Below, one piece after another: positions 2,128 to 10,569 of a DNA stretch of 38,742 nt. The notes under the pieces are model-generated. The model was given only the letters and a program-made list of their open reading frames with translations, did no database searches and was not told the origin of the DNA. Source of the stretch: Sphaerochaetaceae bacterium (GTDB lineage Bacteria; Spirochaetota; Spirochaetia; Sphaerochaetales; Sphaerochaetaceae); NCBI GenBank assembly GCA_024698005.1, contig JAILRW010000115.1, forward strand, positions 1 through 38,742, written 5' to 3'. Numbering within the stretch: the first letter of the stretch is position 1; the number at the start of each line of letters is the position of its first letter. The translations under genes were made by a program, and so were the position numbers.

Positions 2128-2736
2128 TTATCTTGTATGTCTATCCTTCAAAACTTCAGTGACATCTGCAAGGGTACAGTTCTTCTCTTCAAGCAAGACC
2201 AGGAAGTGGTACATGAGATCAGCACATTCACCGAGGAACACTTCCTTATCATCATCCATTGCCGCAATGATCAGTTCAACGGACTCTTCACCAACCTTCT
2301 GAGCAATTCTATTGAGACCTCGAGAGAAGAGGTGGTTGGTATATGAGCCATTCTGAGGACTATTTCTTCTATCCTGAATTACACTCTCAAGGTAGGTAAG
2401 GAACTGAGTATTCTCCATTGCATCAGGATTGTTGATCTCTGAAAAACAGGTATCGGAACCAGTGTGACAGACTGGACCATCAGGAACAGCCTTGACAAGC
2501 AGTGTATCGCCATCGCAGTCGATAAGAATCTCTCTCAGGTGAAGAAAGTTTCCACTGGATTCCCCTTTGGTCCAAAGTCTCTTTCTGCTTCTAGACCAGA
2601 AAGTAACAAGACCTCTTTCAAGTGTTATCCTATAAGCTTCCTCATTCATATAGCCCACCATAAGAATGCGATTTGTTACTGCATCCTGTACAACAGCAGG
2701 GACTAGACCATTACCTTTTTCAAAATCAATTGTCAT
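2128..2736 (-). CDS. hisIE: Bifunctional phosphoribosyl-AMP cyclohydrolase / phosphoribosyl-ATP pyrophosphatase
   Basis: Fusion of HisI (about residues 1-105) and HisE (about 112-200), catalysing steps 3 and 2 of histidine synthesis in the cytoplasm. The HisI part has FWSRSRKRLWTKGESSG, DCDGD (73-77) and the zinc cysteines C74, C90 (GPVCHTG) and C97. The HisE part has the helical GEESVELIIAA and ECADLMYHFLVLL motifs that bind pyrophosphate-linked substrate with acidic residues. Length 202 is normal for the fusion. It is last in the operon and unusually separated from hisF by 101 nt, which contain a possible own promoter; a GGGAG site 6 nt before the ATG supports this start. A terminator follows immediately. 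Confidence 0.95.
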   Translation of the reverse strand: MTIDFEKGNGLVPAVVQDAVTNRILMVGYMNEEAYRITLERGLVTFWSRSRKRLWTKGESSGNFLHLREILIDCDGDTLLVKAVPDGPVCHTGSDTCFSEINNPDAMENTQFLTYLESVIQDRRNSPQNGSYTNHLFSRGLNRIAQKVGEESVELIIAAMDDDKEVFLGECADLMYHFLVLLEEKNCTLADVTEVLKDRHTR

Positions 2737-2759
2737 CTCTCACTCCCGAATGATAAGGA

Positions 2760-2788
2760 ATAATAGAGTACAGATTTACTTTTGTAAA
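2760..2788 (-). promoter_or_regulatory. Candidate internal promoter for hisIE
   Basis: TTTACA (minus strand of 2783-2788), a 17-nt spacer and TATTAT (minus strand of 2760-2765), located in the only sizeable gap of the his operon. Both boxes match consensus at 5 of 6 positions. A small ATTTAC/GTAAAT hairpin overlaps the spacer. Confidence 0.4.
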
Positions 2789-2837
2789 TACTGGCACAAT
2801 TCTTTTTACATAAGATAATTCCTAGGACAGTAAGGAA

Positions 2838-3614
2838 CTACAATCTGACAGATATTCCTTTTGAAGCAAGATAGCGCTTCAGATCCATGATATCAACTTC
2901 ATGATAATGGAAGATGGATGCAGCAAGACCAGCATCTGCACAGCCAGAAGTGAAAACCTCTTCAAAGTGCTCAATAGAGCCAGCACCACCTGAAGCGATT
3001 ACAGGAATTGAAAGGGAGGTGCTTACTCTTCTAGTAAGATTGTTGGCAAAACCCTCTTTTGTTCCATCATGATTCATACTTGTAAGTAGTATTTCACCAG
3101 CACCCAGTTCTTCTACTCTCTTTGCCCATTTTATGCCATCGATTCCTGTTGGGGTTCTTCCTCCATCGAGATATACTTCCCACCCTTCTCCATCTTCAGA
3201 GTCAAAAATAGGATTTCTTCTCACATCGATTGCACACACAACACACTGAGAGCCAAAACGATATGAAAGAGCAGTGACAAGCTCAGGCTCTCTGACTGCT
3301 CTGCTGTTGATGGAAATCTTATCAGCACCTGCATCCAGGATCTTATAGGCATCTTCAACACTTTTTATTCCACCGCCGACAGTGAAAGGAATGTTGATCC
3401 TATCGGCAATTCTTCTGACAAGAGGAGCAAGGGTGTCCCTTTTCTCTACTGTTGCTGTTATATCGAGAAAGACAAGTTCGTCAGCGCCAGCCTGTGAATA
3501 TCTTGCTGCATTCTCAACAGCGTCTCCAGCATCTCTAAGAGAGAGGAAGTTTATACCCTTTACTGTGCGCCCATCCTTTATATCAAGGCAAGGTATGATT
3601 CTTTTAGCTAGCAC
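2838..3614 (-). CDS. hisF: Imidazole glycerol phosphate synthase cyclase subunit
   Basis: A 258-residue (beta/alpha)8 barrel that uses ammonia from HisH to turn PRFAR into imidazole-glycerol phosphate and AICAR. Catalytic Asp11 (PCLDIKDG) and Asp130 (CAIDVRR) are present. The phosphate-binding VGGGI (79-83) and ASGGAG motifs are intact. The start is GTG with a GGAGG site 6 nt upstream, and the first 11 nt overlap the end of hisA, indicating translational coupling. Nothing looks unusual. Confidence 0.97.
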
Positions 3615-4329
3615 TGTTTACCTCCCCTAGTTCAGAAAGTGTAATTCTATTCTCATAGAATGCCTTGCCAACTATTGCACCAAATAATCCAGCTTCCTTC
3701 AGAGTATAGAGGTCTTCTACGCAGGAAACACCACCAGAGGCTATAAGCTTAAGTCCTGGTTCTTTTTCTAGGATCTTCTTATAGAGGTCCACAGAAGGTC
3801 CCATCAACATACCATCCTTGGCAATATCAGTACTTATGCAGTAGACCATGCCCTTCTTGTGATAGGAGTCGATGAAAGAGGTAACTTCAAGAGTGCTGTC
3901 CTCAAGCCAGCCTGAAGCTGAAACCATACCATTTCTGCAATCAGCACCCAATATCAAACGTTCTGGCCCGAACTTCTCAAGCCAACTCAGCACAAGCTCA
4001 CGATCCTTTATTGCAATGGAACCACAGGTTACCTGACTTGCACCTGCATTGAAGGCTCTTTCAAGCTCCTCTGTACTCTTGACTCCACCACCAAAATCGA
4101 TGACAAGAGTTGTTTTTGAGGCAATTCTTTCAAGGGTCTTTATATTTACTATGTGTCCTGCCTTTGCTCCTTCCAGATCCACAAGATGAAGTCTTTCAAG
4201 GCCAGCACCTTCAAAGGCCTTTGCCGCTTCAAGCGGATCATGGTAGTAGACAGTTCTAGTACTGTAATCACCTTTTGTAAGGCGAACAGCCTCACCAGCG
4301 ATTATATCTATTGCAGGTATTATCCTCAT
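3604..4329 (-). CDS. hisA: ProFAR isomerase (phosphoribosylformimino-AICAR-P isomerase)
   Basis: A 241-residue barrel protein that opens the ribose ring of ProFAR to PRFAR, step 4 of the pathway. Asp8 (IIPAIDI) and Asp130 (LGADCRNG) are the conserved catalytic pair; FGGGV and ASGGVS bind the two phosphates. Two ATG codons stand in tandem at 4332 and 4329. I chose 4329 because it lies 7 nt after a GGAGG sequence and overlaps the hisH stop by one base (TGATG). The frame extends further upstream, but that extension lies inside hisH and has no similarity to HisA. Confidence 0.96.
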
Positions 4330-4925
4330 CATTCCACCTCCAAGGTAAGGAAGTTCTTGAGGATTTTCTCCCCAACTTCTCCACTCTTTTCTGGGTGGAA
4401 CTGGCAACCATAGAAGTTGTCCTTTCCCATGCTTGCAGTAAATGAAATTCCATCGTAATTGGTCCTAGCAATCGTATTTGGAGAAAGAGGAACGTAGTAT
4501 GAGTGGACATAATAGACATAGCTTCCACTTCCAACCCCTTCAAAGAGAGGTGAAGATTCTACATCTATGCTATTCCAGCCAACATGAGGAATCTTGACTC
4601 CTTCTGTTTGTGGGAAAAGAGAAACCCTGTTATCAAACAGGGATAGCAGGTCGACATTTCCCTCCTCAGAAAAAGCATTCATAAGCTGCATGCCAAGACA
4701 GATTCCGAGAAAAGGTCTCTTTACCTCTTTGAGAGTGCTCATCAAATTTCTCTTTTCAAGCTCCACCATGGCACTTTTTGCCTGACCGACACCTGGGAAT
4801 ATTACTCTATCCGCACTCAATATCCTGTCTCTTTCACAAGTGAGCTCAGCCTTGGCTCCAAGGCGCTCTAGAGCACAGAGAACAGAGCGGACATTTCCTG
4901 CATTGTAATCAACAACTGCTATCAT
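4329..4925 (-). CDS. hisH: Imidazole glycerol phosphate synthase glutamine amidotransferase subunit
   Basis: A 198-residue class I glutaminase that supplies ammonia to HisF. The catalytic triad is visible: Cys76 in GICLGMQL, His177 and Glu179 in QFHPEKS. The N-terminal DYNAGN and the FPGVG motif of the family are also present. The ATG overlaps the hisB stop by one base, with GGGAG 7 nt upstream. Position between hisB and hisA is the usual order in his operons. Confidence 0.97.
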   Translation of the reverse strand: MIAVVDYNAGNVRSVLCALERLGAKAELTCERDRILSADRVIFPGVGQAKSAMVELEKRNLMSTLKEVKRPFLGICLGMQLMNAFSEEGNVDLLSLFDNRVSLFPQTEGVKIPHVGWNSIDVESSPLFEGVGSGSYVYYVHSYYVPLSPNTIARTNYDGISFTASMGKDNFYGCQFHPEKSGEVGEKILKNFLTLEVE

Positions 4926-5848
4926 CAGAGAACTCCCTTTGTTGATGGAAGTTCCTTGGAACCTGGAACTCTCTTCACTGCCATCCTGATAGCACGTGCA
5001 AAGGCCTTGAAAGCCGCTTCAGCTTGGTGATGGGTATTTCCATCAGTGACCTCTATAGAAAGGTTGCACTGCGCTGCATCAGAGAATGACTTGAAGAAGT
5101 GCTCGAACATCTCTGTTGGGAAACCACCAACCTCCTGACGCTTGAAATTGACCTTCCAAATTAGGTATGGACGACCAGAGAAATCCACAGCAACTGTTGC
5201 AAGAACATCGTCCATCATGAGTATATCGTGCCCATAGCGGTTGATACCTCTCTTATCTCCAAGTGCATAGCGGAAGGCCTGACCCAAAGTGATGCCAAGG
5301 TCTTCAACAGTGTGATGCTCATCGACCTCCAGATCTCCCTTGATGATACCGTTGATATCACAGCGGGAATGCTTTATTACCTGCTCAAGCATGTGGTCGA
5401 AGAATCCAACACCTGTCTTCAGTTCGCCCTTACCACTTCCATCGAGATCCAAGGAGAGATAAATCTGGGTCTCTCTAGTATTTCTCTCAACACTGTAGCA
5501 TCTGTGCTTGATTGTCTCTTCCGGGAGGAAGAATTCAAGTAGAGAGCTGTAAGAATCAAAGTTTTTGAGAGCGCAATCTTTTGACTTTGACACCTGATAT
5601 GAGTTATCTGTATCAACATTATCAAGTGAGATTTCTTTCACTTCAGAATCGAAGTAGATATCTTCACCTGCAAGAGTTTCATAAAAGAGTGAAGGAAGAG
5701 TCTCATTCCCAACTCTAACTATCTCCAGCTCCCCTGCTCTTCTTACACACCTGAGCGCTTCAAAGAGATGCTTCTCATAGTGAAAGCCCTTCTCATCAAC
5801 AAAGCCCAACATATCATCGTAGACAAACAAAACTCTTCTCTTGTTCAT
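4925..5848 (-). CDS. hisB: Imidazoleglycerol-phosphate dehydratase with degenerate N-terminal phosphatase-like domain
   Basis: Two parts in 307 residues. From about residue 120 onward this is a complete IGP dehydratase with the metal-binding repeats EHHTVED and HHQAEAAFKAF and the C-terminal SKGVL. Residues 1-118 resemble the HAD histidinol-phosphatase half of bifunctional HisB but appear inactive: the DxDGT nucleophile motif is replaced by YDDML (Tyr10), the GDxxxD metal motif by SKSKD, and the zinc-binding cysteine loop is missing. The junction RNTRETQI matches the bifunctional enzyme closely. Start ATG 5848 lies one base after the hisC stop with GAGGAG 7 nt upstream; a TTG at 5863 is an unlikely alternative. 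Dehydratase call certain, the vestigial reading likely. Confidence 0.93.
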   Translation of the reverse strand: MNKRRVLFVYDDMLGFVDEKGFHYEKHLFEALRCVRRAGELEIVRVGNETLPSLFYETLAGEDIYFDSEVKEISLDNVDTDNSYQVSKSKDCALKNFDSYSSLLEFFLPEETIKHRCYSVERNTRETQIYLSLDLDGSGKGELKTGVGFFDHMLEQVIKHSRCDINGIIKGDLEVDEHHTVEDLGITLGQAFRYALGDKRGINRYGHDILMMDDVLATVAVDFSGRPYLIWKVNFKRQEVGGFPTEMFEHFFKSFSDAAQCNLSIEVTDGNTHHQAEAAFKAFARAIRMAVKRVPGSKELPSTKGVL

Positions 5849-5849
5849 A

Positions 5850-6896
5850 TCAGAGCTCCTCAAGTGCCTTCATCAGCTTGTCATTCTCTTCCTTTGAACC
5901 AACTGTAATTCTCAAGCAGTTCTCACAATTGAGCTCACGACTTCTATTTCTGACGACAATACCCTTCTTTTGAAGCGCAAGATAGATAGAGTTTGCATCG
6001 AGTACCTTGACAAGCAGGAAGTTGGAATCTGAAGGATAGACCTTTACAACCTTGCTACTCTTCTCAAGCAATCCTCTAAGGCGCTCTCTCTCAAGTTTTG
6101 TGTACTCGACACCCTCTCTTACTGCAGCTGCATTAGCCAATGCCTTCAGTGCCTCAGTTGAAGATGGAAGACCAATATTATATGGGTACTTTACGTTGTA
6201 CATTGCTTCGTGAATTGGCTTTGAGCACATTGCAATTCCAATTCGGGCAGAAGCAAGACCCCAAGCCTTGCTCAAAGTCCTCATCAGGACAACACGTTCA
6301 TTCTCCTTGACCAGGGCACTTGCACTCTTCTCTGTAGAGAAGTCCCAATAGGCTTCATCGACAACAGTTATTCCACTGTTATAAGTTGCAATTTCCTTGA
6401 TTATCTCATAAGGAATTGCATTGCCTGTCGGGTTGTTAGGAGTACAGAGGAAGACAAGCTTAGGGCTTGTTTCATCGATCATCTTTTTGACAAGAGGTAC
6501 ATCGACCTCAAAATCCTTGGTAAGGGGCGCAATGTTTACCTTTATATCATTGATAGAGGCGAAGACCTTATAGGCTCCATAGGTTGGTCCCATCAAAAGT
6601 GCACTGTCCTTTCCTGGATCACAGAAGATCCTGAAAAGGAGGTCGATTATCTCATCAGAACCATTTCCAACGATTGTCATATCGTAGTCAAGGCCGAGAA
6701 CCTCTTCTATAGCCTTCCTAAGCAGAGCAGAGCGAGGATCTGGATAGCGATTGATATCTCCTGGAAAGTCAATATACCTCCTCCAGGATTCGTTTGCATC
6801 AAGATATACTTCAGCAACTCCTTCAAACTCATCCCTCGCACAGCGATATGGATCAAGAGAGGCAATATTTGCTCTCATTAATTTTTCAATACTCAT
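5850..6896 (-). CDS. hisC: Histidinol-phosphate aminotransferase
   Basis: A 348-residue fold-type I PLP enzyme that transfers an amino group from glutamate to imidazole-acetol phosphate. The Schiff-base lysine is Lys210 in TLSKAWGLASARIG. CTPNNPTGN (Asn155) and VVDEAY (Asp180, Tyr183) position the cofactor. GNGSDE near residue 78 binds its phosphate. The ATG overlaps the hisD stop as ATGA with GAGG just upstream. Length and motifs are ordinary for HisC. Confidence 0.96.
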   Translation of the reverse strand: MSIEKLMRANIASLDPYRCARDEFEGVAEVYLDANESWRRYIDFPGDINRYPDPRSALLRKAIEEVLGLDYDMTIVGNGSDEIIDLLFRIFCDPGKDSALLMGPTYGAYKVFASINDIKVNIAPLTKDFEVDVPLVKKMIDETSPKLVFLCTPNNPTGNAIPYEIIKEIATYNSGITVVDEAYWDFSTEKSASALVKENERVVLMRTLSKAWGLASARIGIAMCSKPIHEAMYNVKYPYNIGLPSSTEALKALANAAAVREGVEYTKLERERLRGLLEKSSKVVKVYPSDSNFLLVKVLDANSIYLALQKKGIVVRNRSRELNCENCLRITVGSKEENDKLMKALEEL

Positions 6897-8188
6897 CTCA
6901 TCCTCACTCTTGCAGCTTCAGCGTGTGCGCTGAGGTTCTCTGCCATAGCCATTGTTACAACGGCAGGCGCCAGACTGTCTATCCCCTTCTTGGAAAGATG
7001 CTGGAAAGTAATCTTCTTTATATAACTGTCGACACTTACACCAGAGGATGCACTTGCGTGACCACTAGTAGGAAGTGTGTGGTTAGTTCCTGAAGCATAG
7101 TCTCCAGCAGACTCTGGAGAGTATGGTCCCAAGAATACAGAACCTGCAGAGACAACTTTTTCAGCAAGTTCCATATAGTTCTCTGTGTTTATGATCAAAT
7201 GCTCTGGAGCATACTCATTAGCAATGCTCATAAGCTTCTTATCGTCATATAAGGCTATTGCAGCAGAGTGTGAAAGGGATGGTAACATGTACTCCTTTCT
7301 TCCCAGCCTCTCAAGCTCCATCGCAAGCTCAGAATCTATTCTGGCAAAGATTCGTTTTGCACTCTCTTCATCTTTAGCCCTGATCAAAAGAATTACCTGG
7401 CTGTCCTTTCCATGTTCTGCCTGAGAGAGAAGATCTGTTGCAACAAATAGAGGATTTGCCTTTTCATCGGCAATTACCATGACTTCACTTGGGCCAGCAA
7501 CCATATCGATTGCACAGAAGCTGGAAACTCTATTCTTTGCAAAAGCAACAAATCTGTTGCCTGGGCCAAATATCTTATCAACTCTTTCAACAGACTCTGT
7601 TCCATAGGCAAGAGCGGCAATGGCCTGGGCACCACCAACTTTGAGTACCCTATCTACACCACAGCGTCTAGCAGTATAAAGAACGACAGGATTGACACTT
7701 CCACCCTGGGCAGGAGTTGCCAGTGTAATGCTCGGACAAGAAGCAACCTTTGCAGGAATAGAAAGCATAAGAACAGTTGAGAAAAGAGGTGCAGTACCAC
7801 CTGGGATGTAAAGACCTACTCTCTGGATTGGCACAACCTTTCTCCAGCAATCGACACCCTCCATTGTCGTAACCCTCTCGCCTTCTCTAAGCTGAGCCTT
7901 ATGAAAAGCAGTGATATTCTTATAGGCAACTTCAATTGCTGCTTTAACATCCTCGCTGACCAGCTCTTCAGCTCTCTTGAACTCTTCGTCACTCACATAG
8001 AGGTCAACAAGCTCGTTATTGCCAAACTTTCTTTCATACTCTCTCAGAGCCTCATCTCCGCGAGTTCTTACATTCTCGAGAATATCATCGACAATCTTCT
8101 CGACCTTACTGTCATCAGCAAGAGATCTCTTCAAAAGCTCTGAATATACATCCTTTTCAGGATTCAGATATAAAGGTATTGTGCTCAT
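6893..8188 (-). CDS. hisD: Histidinol dehydrogenase
   Basis: A 431-residue zinc enzyme that oxidises histidinol to histidine in two NAD-dependent steps, the last reaction of the pathway. The zinc ligands are visible as Gln256 and His259 (LLSQAEHG), Asp363 (GDYASG) and His422. The catalytic pair Glu329-His330 lies in APEHL. The GPGNRFVAFAK motif is complete. It begins 2 nt after the hisG stop codon, with GGAG five bases before the ATG. Confidence 0.97.
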   Translation of the reverse strand: MSTIPLYLNPEKDVYSELLKRSLADDSKVEKIVDDILENVRTRGDEALREYERKFGNNELVDLYVSDEEFKRAEELVSEDVKAAIEVAYKNITAFHKAQLREGERVTTMEGVDCWRKVVPIQRVGLYIPGGTAPLFSTVLMLSIPAKVASCPSITLATPAQGGSVNPVVLYTARRCGVDRVLKVGGAQAIAALAYGTESVERVDKIFGPGNRFVAFAKNRVSSFCAIDMVAGPSEVMVIADEKANPLFVATDLLSQAEHGKDSQVILLIRAKDEESAKRIFARIDSELAMELERLGRKEYMLPSLSHSAAIALYDDKKLMSIANEYAPEHLIINTENYMELAEKVVSAGSVFLGPYSPESAGDYASGTNHTLPTSGHASASSGVSVDSYIKKITFQHLSKKGIDSLAPAVVTMAMAENLSAHAEAARVRMR

Positions 8189-8190
8189 AT

Positions 8191-9063
8191 TTACTCCGTC
8201 ATCTTCTCGATATTCAGAACAAGGATGCCTTCAGCTCCGATAGCCCTAAGACTTTCAAATACAGACCAGAATCTATCTTCACTGACTACAGACTGGACAG
8301 ACACCCAAGATTTATCCATCAAAGGAGTGACGGTCGGGCTCTTCATACCACCAATGATTTCAGCTGCCTTTTCAAGATTATCCTTTGGAAGGTTGAAAAG
8401 AATGTACTTCTTGTTCTTTGCAAGGTTCACAGCTTCCATCCTAGTAAGAAGACGCTGAAGGATGTTCCATCTCTCACTATCCTTTTTCTGCATTTGTTTG
8501 CCTGCAATCATTACAGCAGAAGTGCGATAGATGACTTCAACCTCTTTAAGCCCATTCATCTTCAAGGTTGTGCCAGTACTGACAAGGTCACAGATACAGT
8601 CGGCGATACCGATTTGTGGAGTAATCTCAACAGAGCCAGAAACCTCAACAAAGGAGGCCTTAACTCCATTTTCTTCGAGGATCTTTCCAGTAATTCTAGG
8701 ATAACTGGTTGCAATTCTCTTGCCTTCTAGACACTTAAGGCCTGTATATTCCATTTCGTTTGGAACAGCGATAGAAAGGCGGCACTTTGCAAATCCCAGA
8801 TCTTTTATGACGTCAAGGTCGTAGCCAGACTCATCGTATCCATTTCTTCCTACTATACCGATATCTGCTACTCCATCATTTACGAGTGTTGGAATATCAT
8901 CATCACGGACAAACAAGAATTCGAGTGGGAAGTTCGAGGCAACGTCTCTAAGAACTCTCTCATCGACACCGAAGTCGATTCCACAGGCCTTTATCAGATC
9001 CTGACTTTTTTCACTGAGTCTGCCCTTCTTCTGCAGTGCTATTCTCAATCTCTTATCGCTCAT
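8191..9063 (-). CDS. hisG: ATP phosphoribosyltransferase, long form
   Basis: First enzyme of the pathway, joining ATP and PRPP. At 290 residues it is the long form: catalytic domains 1-215 with ALQKKGRL and the PRPP loop around ISDLVSTGTTL-like DLVSTGTTLK, and a C-terminal ACT-like regulatory domain of about 75 residues. The latter normally makes the enzyme hexameric and inhibitable by histidine, so no HisZ subunit should be needed. The ATG has AAGGAG 7 nt upstream. Transcription reaches this gene only after passing the his attenuator, giving both enzyme and transcript level feedback by histidine. Confidence 0.96.
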   Translation of the reverse strand: MSDKRLRIALQKKGRLSEKSQDLIKACGIDFGVDERVLRDVASNFPLEFLFVRDDDIPTLVNDGVADIGIVGRNGYDESGYDLDVIKDLGFAKCRLSIAVPNEMEYTGLKCLEGKRIATSYPRITGKILEENGVKASFVEVSGSVEITPQIGIADCICDLVSTGTTLKMNGLKEVEVIYRTSAVMIAGKQMQKKDSERWNILQRLLTRMEAVNLAKNKKYILFNLPKDNLEKAAEIIGGMKSPTVTPLMDKSWVSVQSVVSEDRFWSVFESLRAIGAEGILVLNIEKMTE

Positions 9064-9086
9064 ATATTGTCTCCTTTGCTCTATCT

Positions 9087-9116
9087 AAAAAATAAACCTC
9101 CGACATGCGGAGGTTT
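9087..9116 (-). terminator. his operon attenuator terminator
   Basis: In the minus-strand RNA, AAACCUCCG (9116-9108) and CGGAGGUUU (9102-9094) form a perfect 9-bp stem around a 5-nt loop, followed by AUUUUUU. It lies between the hisL stop codon and the hisG ribosome site, so it would stop transcription before hisG unless the leader folds into the alternative structure. Confidence 0.9.
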
Positions 9117-9174
9117 CCATATATATGCAGAAATACCAGCCATGCCCTTGATGGTTACGTGAGGAAATGGTGGT
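9104..9174 (-). promoter_or_regulatory. Mutually exclusive pairing regions of the his leader RNA
   Basis: Read on the minus strand. Region 1, ACCACCAU at 9174-9167, lies inside the His codons and pairs with region 2, AUGGCUGGU at 9143-9135, as 8 bp with one bulged C. Region 2 extended (9144-9130) can instead pair with region 3 (9117-9104), which is the 5' arm and loop of the terminator: UUUC with GAAA, GG with CC and CAUG with CAUG. Ribosome stalling at the His codons would mask region 1, release region 2 to pair with region 3 and prevent termination. Pairings were found by eye; energies were not computed. Confidence 0.75.
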
Positions 9175-9196
9175 GATGATGCTTTCTATTTGTCAT
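9155..9196 (-). CDS. hisL: his operon leader peptide
   Basis: A 13-codon frame, MTNRKHHHHHFLT, ending in TAA 36 nt before the attenuator stem. Five consecutive codons are histidine (CAT CAT CAC CAC CAT), just like the run in the enterobacterial hisL, whose N-terminus MT is also similar. Its role would be to report charged tRNA-His: stalling at the run lets the downstream RNA fold into an antiterminator. The ATG has no Shine-Dalgarno and coincides with the predicted transcription start, so translation may begin on a leaderless RNA. Confidence is high because peptide, pairing regions, terminator and hisG occur in the right order. Confidence 0.92.
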   Translation of the reverse strand: MTNRKHHHHHFLT

Positions 9197-9202
9197 GGGC
9201 AA

Positions 9203-9232
9203 ATTCTAAACATATAGTCTATTTAGCGTCAA
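9203..9232 (-). promoter_or_regulatory. his operon promoter
   Basis: TTGACG (minus strand of 9227-9232), 18-nt spacer, TAGAAT (minus strand of 9203-9208) with an upstream TGTT. A start seven bases downstream falls on the A of the hisL ATG at 9196. It lies in the 47-nt gap after the HdeD-like gene and is the best promoter-like match there. Confidence 0.65.
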
Positions 9233-9243
9233 TGATTAAAGCC

Positions 9244-9837
9244 TTATTTTTCGCTAAATTCTGCTTCTGCAACATTCTGCGACTTACTTGTCTGGTTATA
9301 GGCCCTTACAAGCTTGAATGTTCTAATTCCCCAAACAATATTTACAAGGCCTATGAAGACGATACAGAGACCAATCATTGAGACAAAACTAGAACTTACG
9401 AATTTCGGGAATAGGAACATTACAAAAGAGAGGATCAGGGAAATGATTCCAGGTCCTGCAAATGTAATGTCTGCGCTATTTGAGTAGAGGATAATGGAAC
9501 CAAGGATATCTGAAATAGCAGATACAAGCAGCGTAAATGCGATGATATATACGATAAATTCCCCAAGCTCCTGACCGCTGTTTGACAAAGCCATCATTGA
9601 AGCCAGAAGACCAACTGCAGAGTCGAGAGTAGCTTTGATGATATTCAAGGTAAATGCCAAGGGACTTATATATCTTAGCTTGAAAGAGTAGATAAAACTG
9701 AGAATACCATTGAAGAGAGTATAGAGACCAAAACCCAAAACCATTATGACAATTGCTTTGGAAGTGTTTGTAAGGATAAAAAGTCCGAGCAAAACTGTCA
9801 GGACACCTGTCAATATCCATGTTAAATACTTTTTCAT
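9244..9837 (-). CDS. HdeD-like (DUF308) membrane protein
   Basis: A 197-residue hydrophobic protein with about six membrane helices in three hairpins, the layout of the HdeD/DUF308 family. Members occur widely as inner-membrane proteins, with acid-stress roles described for enterobacterial HdeD; no function can be assigned here. The ATG at 9837 follows AAGGAG by 6-7 nt; the upstream in-frame start would only add a charged stretch. It is divergent from the HAD gene. Its stop lies 47 nt before the his leader, with no terminator visible in between, so read-through into the his attenuator region is possible. Confidence 0.75.
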   Translation of the reverse strand: MKKYLTWILTGVLTVLLGLFILTNTSKAIVIMVLGFGLYTLFNGILSFIYSFKLRYISPLAFTLNIIKATLDSAVGLLASMMALSNSGQELGEFIVYIIAFTLLVSAISDILGSIILYSNSADITFAGPGIISLILSFVMFLFPKFVSSSFVSMIGLCIVFIGLVNIVWGIRTFKLVRAYNQTSKSQNVAEAEFSEK

Positions 9838-9847
9838 ATGAATCTCC

Positions 9848-9876
9848 TTGCCTACTGAACGCAATTATTGTAGCGT
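9848..9876 (+). promoter_or_regulatory. Candidate promoter of the HAD hydrolase gene
   Basis: TTGCCT (9848-9853), 17-nt spacer, TAGCGT (9871-9876), then exactly 6 nt to the ATG at 9883. The -10 is weak (3 of 6). No ribosome site lies before the ATG, consistent with a leaderless message. Confidence 0.35.
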
Positions 9877-9882
9877 TTCACC

Positions 9883-10569
9883 ATGAAGAGCTATAGCACA
9901 CTTCTTTTAGACCTTGATGGTACGCTTTTTGACTTCGGCTCAACTGAAAGGATAGCACTAAAAAAGCTGTTCAACCACATCAGTCTTGAAATAAATGAAG
10001 AAAACCGAAGAATTTACCATGAAGTAAACCTTCTCTGTTGGCAGGATTATGAGCAAGGCATTATCTCTATGGAAAGATTGAAAGTTAAAAGGTTTGAAGA
10101 TTTTCTAGCTGTTCTAGGTCTGAAGTGGAATGCCAAAGAGCTATCAGAACTCTTCATAGAATACCTTTCAGAAGAAGGTATCGTAATTGATGGCTCCATA
10201 AGTACTCTTGAAAAACTTAAAAAGAACTACAAGCTTGTACTAATCACAAATGGAATTGCTTCTGTTCAGAGAGGCAGGTTAAAAGATTCAAATACCGAAC
10301 ATTTTTTTGATAGTTTGGTAATCAGCGAAGAGATCGGTTATCAGAAACCAGATAAGCGCTTTTTTGATGTAGCTCTTTCTATGGCTGACAGCACAAGAGA
10401 GGAGTGTCTTGTAATTGGGGATGGCCTTTCTTCCGATATCAAGGGCGGAAGAGAGAGTGGAATCGATACGCTATACCTGCACCTGAACACTCCTTGCCTT
10501 GCAAATGAAGGAGATTACACTTATGAAGCAGGAAGCTATGCTGAGGTTCTCAAGCTACTTGAGAAGTGA
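9883..10569 (+). CDS. HAD-superfamily hydrolase, YjjG/YfnB-like
   Basis: A 228-residue HAD phosphatase with all four motifs: DLDGTLFD (nucleophile Asp10, Asp12), LITNG, Lys in YQKPDKRFF, and IGDGLSSDIKGG. A helical cap sits between motifs I and II. Motif III/IV context resembles YjjG/YfnB, which hydrolyse noncanonical pyrimidine nucleoside monophosphates; substrate is nevertheless uncertain because HAD enzymes are broad. The neighbouring his operon lacks an evident histinol-phosphatase, so that activity is a possible but unsupported alternative. The stop codon abuts the stop of the convergent FKBP gene with no space and no terminator. Confidence 0.85.
   Translation: MKSYSTLLLDLDGTLFDFGSTERIALKKLFNHISLEINEENRRIYHEVNLLCWQDYEQGIISMERLKVKRFEDFLAVLGLKWNAKELSELFIEYLSEEGIVIDGSISTLEKLKKNYKLVLITNGIASVQRGRLKDSNTEHFFDSLVISEEIGYQKPDKRFFDVALSMADSTREECLVIGDGLSSDIKGGRESGIDTLYLHLNTPCLANEGDYTYEAGSYAEVLKLLEK

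Follow-up and report, generated by a model that had tools for sequence, protein, structure and literature searches.

According to the parts of two papers that treat the subject (PMC9413887, PMC2965389), attenuators of histidine (his) operons have been described in Proteobacteria and in a few Firmicutes. In the enterobacterial and gammaproteobacterial type (Rfam His_leader, RF00514), a run of His codons lies in a short leader, together with mutually exclusive hairpins and a terminator before hisG. For Firmicutes (the Bacillus cereus group, Peptostreptococcaceae and Erysipelotrichales), the relevant part of one of these papers predicts by comparison his attenuators that combine a His-rich leader peptide with a terminator and an antiterminator before the his operons (PMC9413887). 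A leader ORF that begins at the first nucleotide of the transcript has been reported for trpL/rnTrpL of Sinorhizobium meliloti (PMC7298713). His attenuation as such and a leaderless attenuator peptide are, in other words, already known. Charging of tRNA-His can likewise be sensed, for the control of his genes, by a His-specific T-box riboswitch; T-boxes bind the tRNA directly and do not need a leader peptide.

We studied a window (the whole stretch of DNA analysed, 38,742 nucleotides) from a Spirochaetales bacterium, a host that the first-pass annotation had suspected to be a spirochaete. The named relatives closest to it by HisG are Spirochaetales MAGs from rumen and gut (93 and 92% identical). 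We consider it very likely that the locus described below controls the his operon by ribosome-mediated transcription attenuation and that translation of its leader peptide takes place on a leaderless mRNA. Our searches of openly licensed papers turned up no account of a his attenuator in a spirochaete. This reading would place classical his attenuation in the phylum Spirochaetota; besides the phylum, its apparent novelties are the predicted leaderless start and an antiterminator anchored in the terminator loop.

Downstream of the leader lies a complete hisGDCBHAFI(E) operon, with the same gene order as behind the RF00514 attenuator, an order familiar from enterobacteria. In a search with the RF00514 model, neither the window nor 14 spirochaete relatives gave a match, while five out of five Alteromonas control loci did so in the same search (59–68 bits). 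The spirochaete his leader is therefore not a member of this family, although, judging by its sequence, it should work like one. The likeness to enterobacterial his operons drawn in the first-pass annotation would hold for the class of attenuator but not for the family, and the design is shorter. The terminator follows the leader stop after 22–41 nt in every spirochaete leader analysed, compared with 60–62 nt in Alteromonas. The spirochaete leader further differs from RF00514 in its predicted leaderless start and in an antiterminator strand (region 2) that pairs with the terminator loop.

S. meliloti trpL shares the leaderless attenuator peptide (reported there, predicted here) but differs in its amino acid, tryptophan, in its occurrence in Alphaproteobacteria and in its unrelated sequence. 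The his attenuators of Firmicutes belong to another phylum, that of Gram-positives, and leaderless starts are not mentioned for them in the part of the source concerned (PMC9413887). We rejected a low-threshold Rfam match to Phe_leader (24 bits), which is far below the gathering score and was attributed to a similar terminator shape. The T-box covariance model gave no match in the window. A lone sub-threshold T-box-like match in the genome (L114, G000:C54:9061-9292; 46 bits, E 4e-9) has a canonical-looking GAGTGGTACCGCGG motif and adjoins AMP-binding (acyl-CoA synthetase-like) genes, an unusual T-box target.

The features of the locus are collected in Table 1. Both the 13-codon frame with five consecutive His codons and the 9-bp terminator with a U-run before hisG, which the first-pass annotation had described, are present. 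The description matches the sequence to the base, from the leader AUG at 9196 to where the U-run ends at 9087, and is confirmed overall. What went unnoticed in it is the leaderless start.

Table 1. Features of the his leader and the his operon in the window.
Feature	Position	Strand	Remarks
-35 hexamer TTGACG of a predicted sigma-70-type promoter	9227..9232	minus	TTGAC kept at about -36 from the leader AUG in relatives
-10 hexamer TAGAAT of the predicted promoter	9203..9208	minus	18-nt spacer; ends 6 nt before the leader AUG
Leader peptide ORF MTNRKHHHHHFLT and stop TAA	9155..9196	minus	13 codons, without Shine-Dalgarno sequence
Five His codons CAT CAT CAC CAC CAT	9167..9181	minus	proposed ribosome stall site
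Region 1: ACCACCAU-U-UCCU	9162..9174	minus	overlaps the last His codons; pairs with region 2 (protector)
Region 2: AGGGCAUGGCUGGU	9135..9148	minus	partner is region 1 or region 3
Region 3: GGAAACCUCCGCAUGUC	9102..9118	minus	terminator 5' arm and loop; pairs with region 2 (antiterminator)
Intrinsic terminator hairpin 3:4	9094..9116	minus	9 bp, -11.8 kcal/mol
Terminator tail AUUUUUU	9087..9093	minus	
Shine-Dalgarno sequence AAGGAG of hisG	9071..9076	minus	strong, unlike the leader, which has none
hisG	8191..9063	minus	long form with HisG_C regulatory domain
hisD, hisC, hisB, hisH, hisA, hisF, hisIE	2128..8188	minus	rest of the predicted regulated operon

Two neighbouring genes deserve a comment. 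The HisB protein (gene at 4925-5863, minus strand) corresponds to the dehydratase half of bifunctional HisB alone, over its residues 118-312; neither Pfam nor NCBIfam gave a match for the 117 residues in front. Its start codon is TTG and may be placed too far upstream. On the other side of the leader, a gene for a DUF308 membrane protein (9244-9864, minus strand) runs in the same direction and ends about 12 nt before the -35 box of the his promoter. Read-through from this gene into the leader is possible, and such transcripts could have a long 5' UTR.

The leader frame reads ATG ACA AAT AGA AAG CAT CAT CAC CAC CAT TTC CTC ACG TAA. To judge its His run, we counted ATG ORFs of 5-45 codons in regions upstream of hisG and in dinucleotide shuffles of the identical regions. 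Three consecutive His codons occurred in such an ORF at 32 of 33 spirochaete loci and in 18 of 6600 shuffles, and four at 20 of the 33 loci and in none of 6600 shuffles; these tests make no correction for shared ancestry. Because of the difference for the three-codon run, a chance origin of the His run before hisG is excluded. In a second, held-out set, which had played no part in forming the hypothesis, 54 out of 56 loci carried a His-rich leader. The sole exception of the first set (L012) keeps the layout with two His codons, and one of the two held-out misses has the same degenerate leader.

Comparison with the nearest relative (L017) revealed three substitutions in the leader frame, all of them synonymous, one being a change from CAT to CAC within the His run. 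Outside this run, the peptide varies freely among relatives. An attenuator would have been called into question if close relatives had lost the His run or the competing pairings; our examination of these relatives did not refute it. Taken together, the sequence and more than 80 related loci support the assignment of a predicted his attenuator with a five-His leader peptide.

The switch accompanies one type of long HisG. Most members in the first set are 60–100% identical to the query, and outlying ones reach 58% (L042) and 53% (L096). In the spirochaete stretches examined, no His leader lies upstream of short-form HisG or of a long-form outlier with 44% identity (G056). The switch thus travels with one long HisG type. 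The first-pass annotation expected an uncommon occurrence; among relatives the leader is no exception, since nearly all of those with this long-form HisG have one. In a tree made to examine a possible horizontal origin of the operon, the branches outside the spirochaetes are long.

Since the -10 hexamer ends 6 nt upstream of the AUG, the predicted transcription start is the A of this codon, and the leader mRNA should be leaderless. In the held-out set, 47 of 49 distinct leaders have 6-8 nt between the end of the -10 box and the AUG, nearly always exactly 6 nt, and the same geometry is seen in most loci of the first set. No Shine-Dalgarno-like motif was found within 18 nt before the leader AUG of the window. 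An identical scan of the held-out leaders found none in most of them and AGGA before the AUG in a few. Given this near-fixed distance, a mechanism that needs tight coupling of ribosome and polymerase may be able to run on leaderless initiation.

Leaders with 19-44 nt between the -10 box and the AUG, mostly with a Shine-Dalgarno sequence, fall in one genus subclade of the HisG tree (SH-aLRT 99). One member of this subclade (L029) is leaderless, and the more distant locus L096 also departs from the leaderless geometry. In the family, leaderless initiation is probably the ancestral state, from which there was one main change to a 5' UTR. Nature thereby allows two modes of initiation to be compared on the same switch, among close relatives that have a 5' UTR or lack one.

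This subclade also lends some weight to a reading in which the locus is an ordinary his attenuator with its leader on a 5' UTR transcript, made from an unseen upstream promoter or by read-through from the DUF308 gene, so that TTGACG/TAGAAT would not be the active promoter. In its favour, the DUF308 gene runs in the same direction up to 9244, the strand has no terminator-like site between this gene and the leader (the his terminator is the only such site in 8900-9900), and there is one other promoter-like match upstream, at 9801. However, TTGAC, a TANNNT-like box and the fixed 6-8 nt to the AUG recur in very dissimilar leaders, and the window leader has nothing resembling a Shine-Dalgarno sequence where one would be expected. 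We regard this reading as improbable.

A generic leaderless pattern gave 20 matches in the genome that carries the window versus 14 in controls, which is no evidence for widespread leaderless genes there. None of these matches apart from the his leader contains a run of biosynthetic codons. A phylum-wide search with the pattern TTGAC..ATG..CAYCAYCAY was abandoned as too unspecific, its matches being mostly unrelated.

Returning to the leaderless attenuator, we turn to the RNA structures on which it would depend. The terminator has the sequence AAACCTCCG-CATGT-CGGAGGTTT, followed by ATTTTTT, and its U-run ends 24 nt before hisG. In the antiterminator, region 2 is paired to the 5' arm of the terminator and particularly to the terminator loop. 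The 2:3 antiterminator overlaps both elements, so that it and the terminator cannot form together. The three hairpins of the window differ little in energy (1:2, -10.7; 2:3, -10.3; 3:4, -11.8 kcal/mol).

All the competing pairings proposed in the first-pass annotation can be drawn in the window, but they are not equally well backed. For the 1:2 pairing, 1.4% of shuffles are as good in the window, and across relatives it is weakly supported (median shuffle fraction 0.27). For the 2:3 pairing, the window by itself shows no gain in strength over shuffled versions of region 2 (fraction 0.42), and therefore the case for this pairing is comparative. The whole 137-nt leader folds no better than shuffles (z -0.93).

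The best support for the competing pairings comes from co-variation of the terminator loop with region 2. Terminator loops differ among relatives, and each is still complementary to its own region 2. The compensatory changes that had been suggested as a check were found in loop pairs such as GGAAUGCG:CGCAUUUC, GGGAUGCG:CGCAUUCC and AUCUAGGC:GCCUAGAU, and further in UAAGUGG:CCGCUUA and GCCAUG:CAUGGC. Cognate region 2 and terminator 5' arms reach -11.5 kcal/mol versus -9.1 when permuted, and loop helices score 14.3 versus 12.0; in both cases none of 20000 permutations was as good, in tests that, like the shuffles, leave shared ancestry out of account, so that their significance should not be read as an exact value.

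As for the energy comparison that had also been proposed, the terminator is somewhat more stable than the antiterminator, and no equilibrium shift appears in the window. There, the terminator is favoured even with region 1 masked (P 0.98 versus 0.99 with the ribosome at the stop codon). In about a third of relatives, the equilibrium model of ribosome positions does shift clearly; we do not use it as support. Because the terminator stays favoured at equilibrium, switching would have to rest on the order of events during transcription. Between regions 2 and 3, the loop of the antiterminator (9119-9135 on the minus strand, with its equivalents in relatives) frequently has a CATATA-like motif that could be a pause site of RNA polymerase.

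The terminator itself argues against control of hisG translation, by sequestration of its Shine-Dalgarno sequence or by translational coupling, in place of transcription termination. Some known attenuators do act on translation, according to part of the literature (PMC9413887), and the leader lies close to hisG; however, all spirochaete leaders analysed are followed by an intrinsic terminator with a U-tail, and the hisG Shine-Dalgarno sequence (9076-9071) is outside the hairpins, which leaves this alternative with very little probability. We give almost no credence to a fixed terminator behind a small His-rich protein (e.g., for metal binding) that does not switch in response to histidine: it would agree with a window terminator that is thermodynamically favoured at all modelled ribosome positions, but the peptide is unconserved beyond the His run, the leader sits directly before hisG of a his operon, and the terminator loop changes in step with region 2.

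The leaderless attenuator that we prefer could work as follows. RNA polymerase would start at the A of the AUG, and a ribosome would load directly on this 5'-terminal codon. With ample charged tRNA-His, the ribosome would reach the stop codon, where its footprint and the 1:2 hairpin would separate region 2 from region 3. The terminator would then form and transcription would stop after about 110 nt. Under a shortage of charged tRNA-His, the ribosome would stall in the His run and mask region 1. The freed region 2 could then pair with the nascent terminator 5' arm and loop ahead of synthesis of the 3' arm. The antiterminator would be complete as soon as the terminator loop is transcribed, at a moment when the 3' arm is not yet made, and transcription would proceed into hisG-hisIE.

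A more far-reaching version appears rather unlikely to us as a whole. It holds that the attenuator is conserved family-wide and ancestrally leaderless, that loading of 70S ribosomes on the 5'-terminal AUG synchronises ribosome and polymerase, that one subclade swapped to Shine-Dalgarno initiation with the switch kept, and that the terminated RNA of about 110 nt or the His-rich peptide may act in trans. Action in trans has been reported for S. meliloti rnTrpL.

Two other candidate leaders came to light. In a trpE locus of another spirochaete family (L118, in G045), at about position 1132, a short ORF, MTVSINRNVSKLSTFSSSKDWWFW, is preceded by TTGACA-18-TATATT-6 nt-ATG; its peptide ends in DWWFW and a large terminator-like hairpin lies downstream. 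It is a probable leaderless trp attenuator. The genome of the window has no TrpE match. In that genome, on the minus strand, a short leaderless-type ORF (MKARASSS, L065) lies upstream of a type III glutamine synthetase-like gene. Behind this ORF come repeats of inverted GGCGUC/GACGCC elements and a U-rich tail, with no Rfam match; this is possibly an unrecognised leader RNA for glnA.
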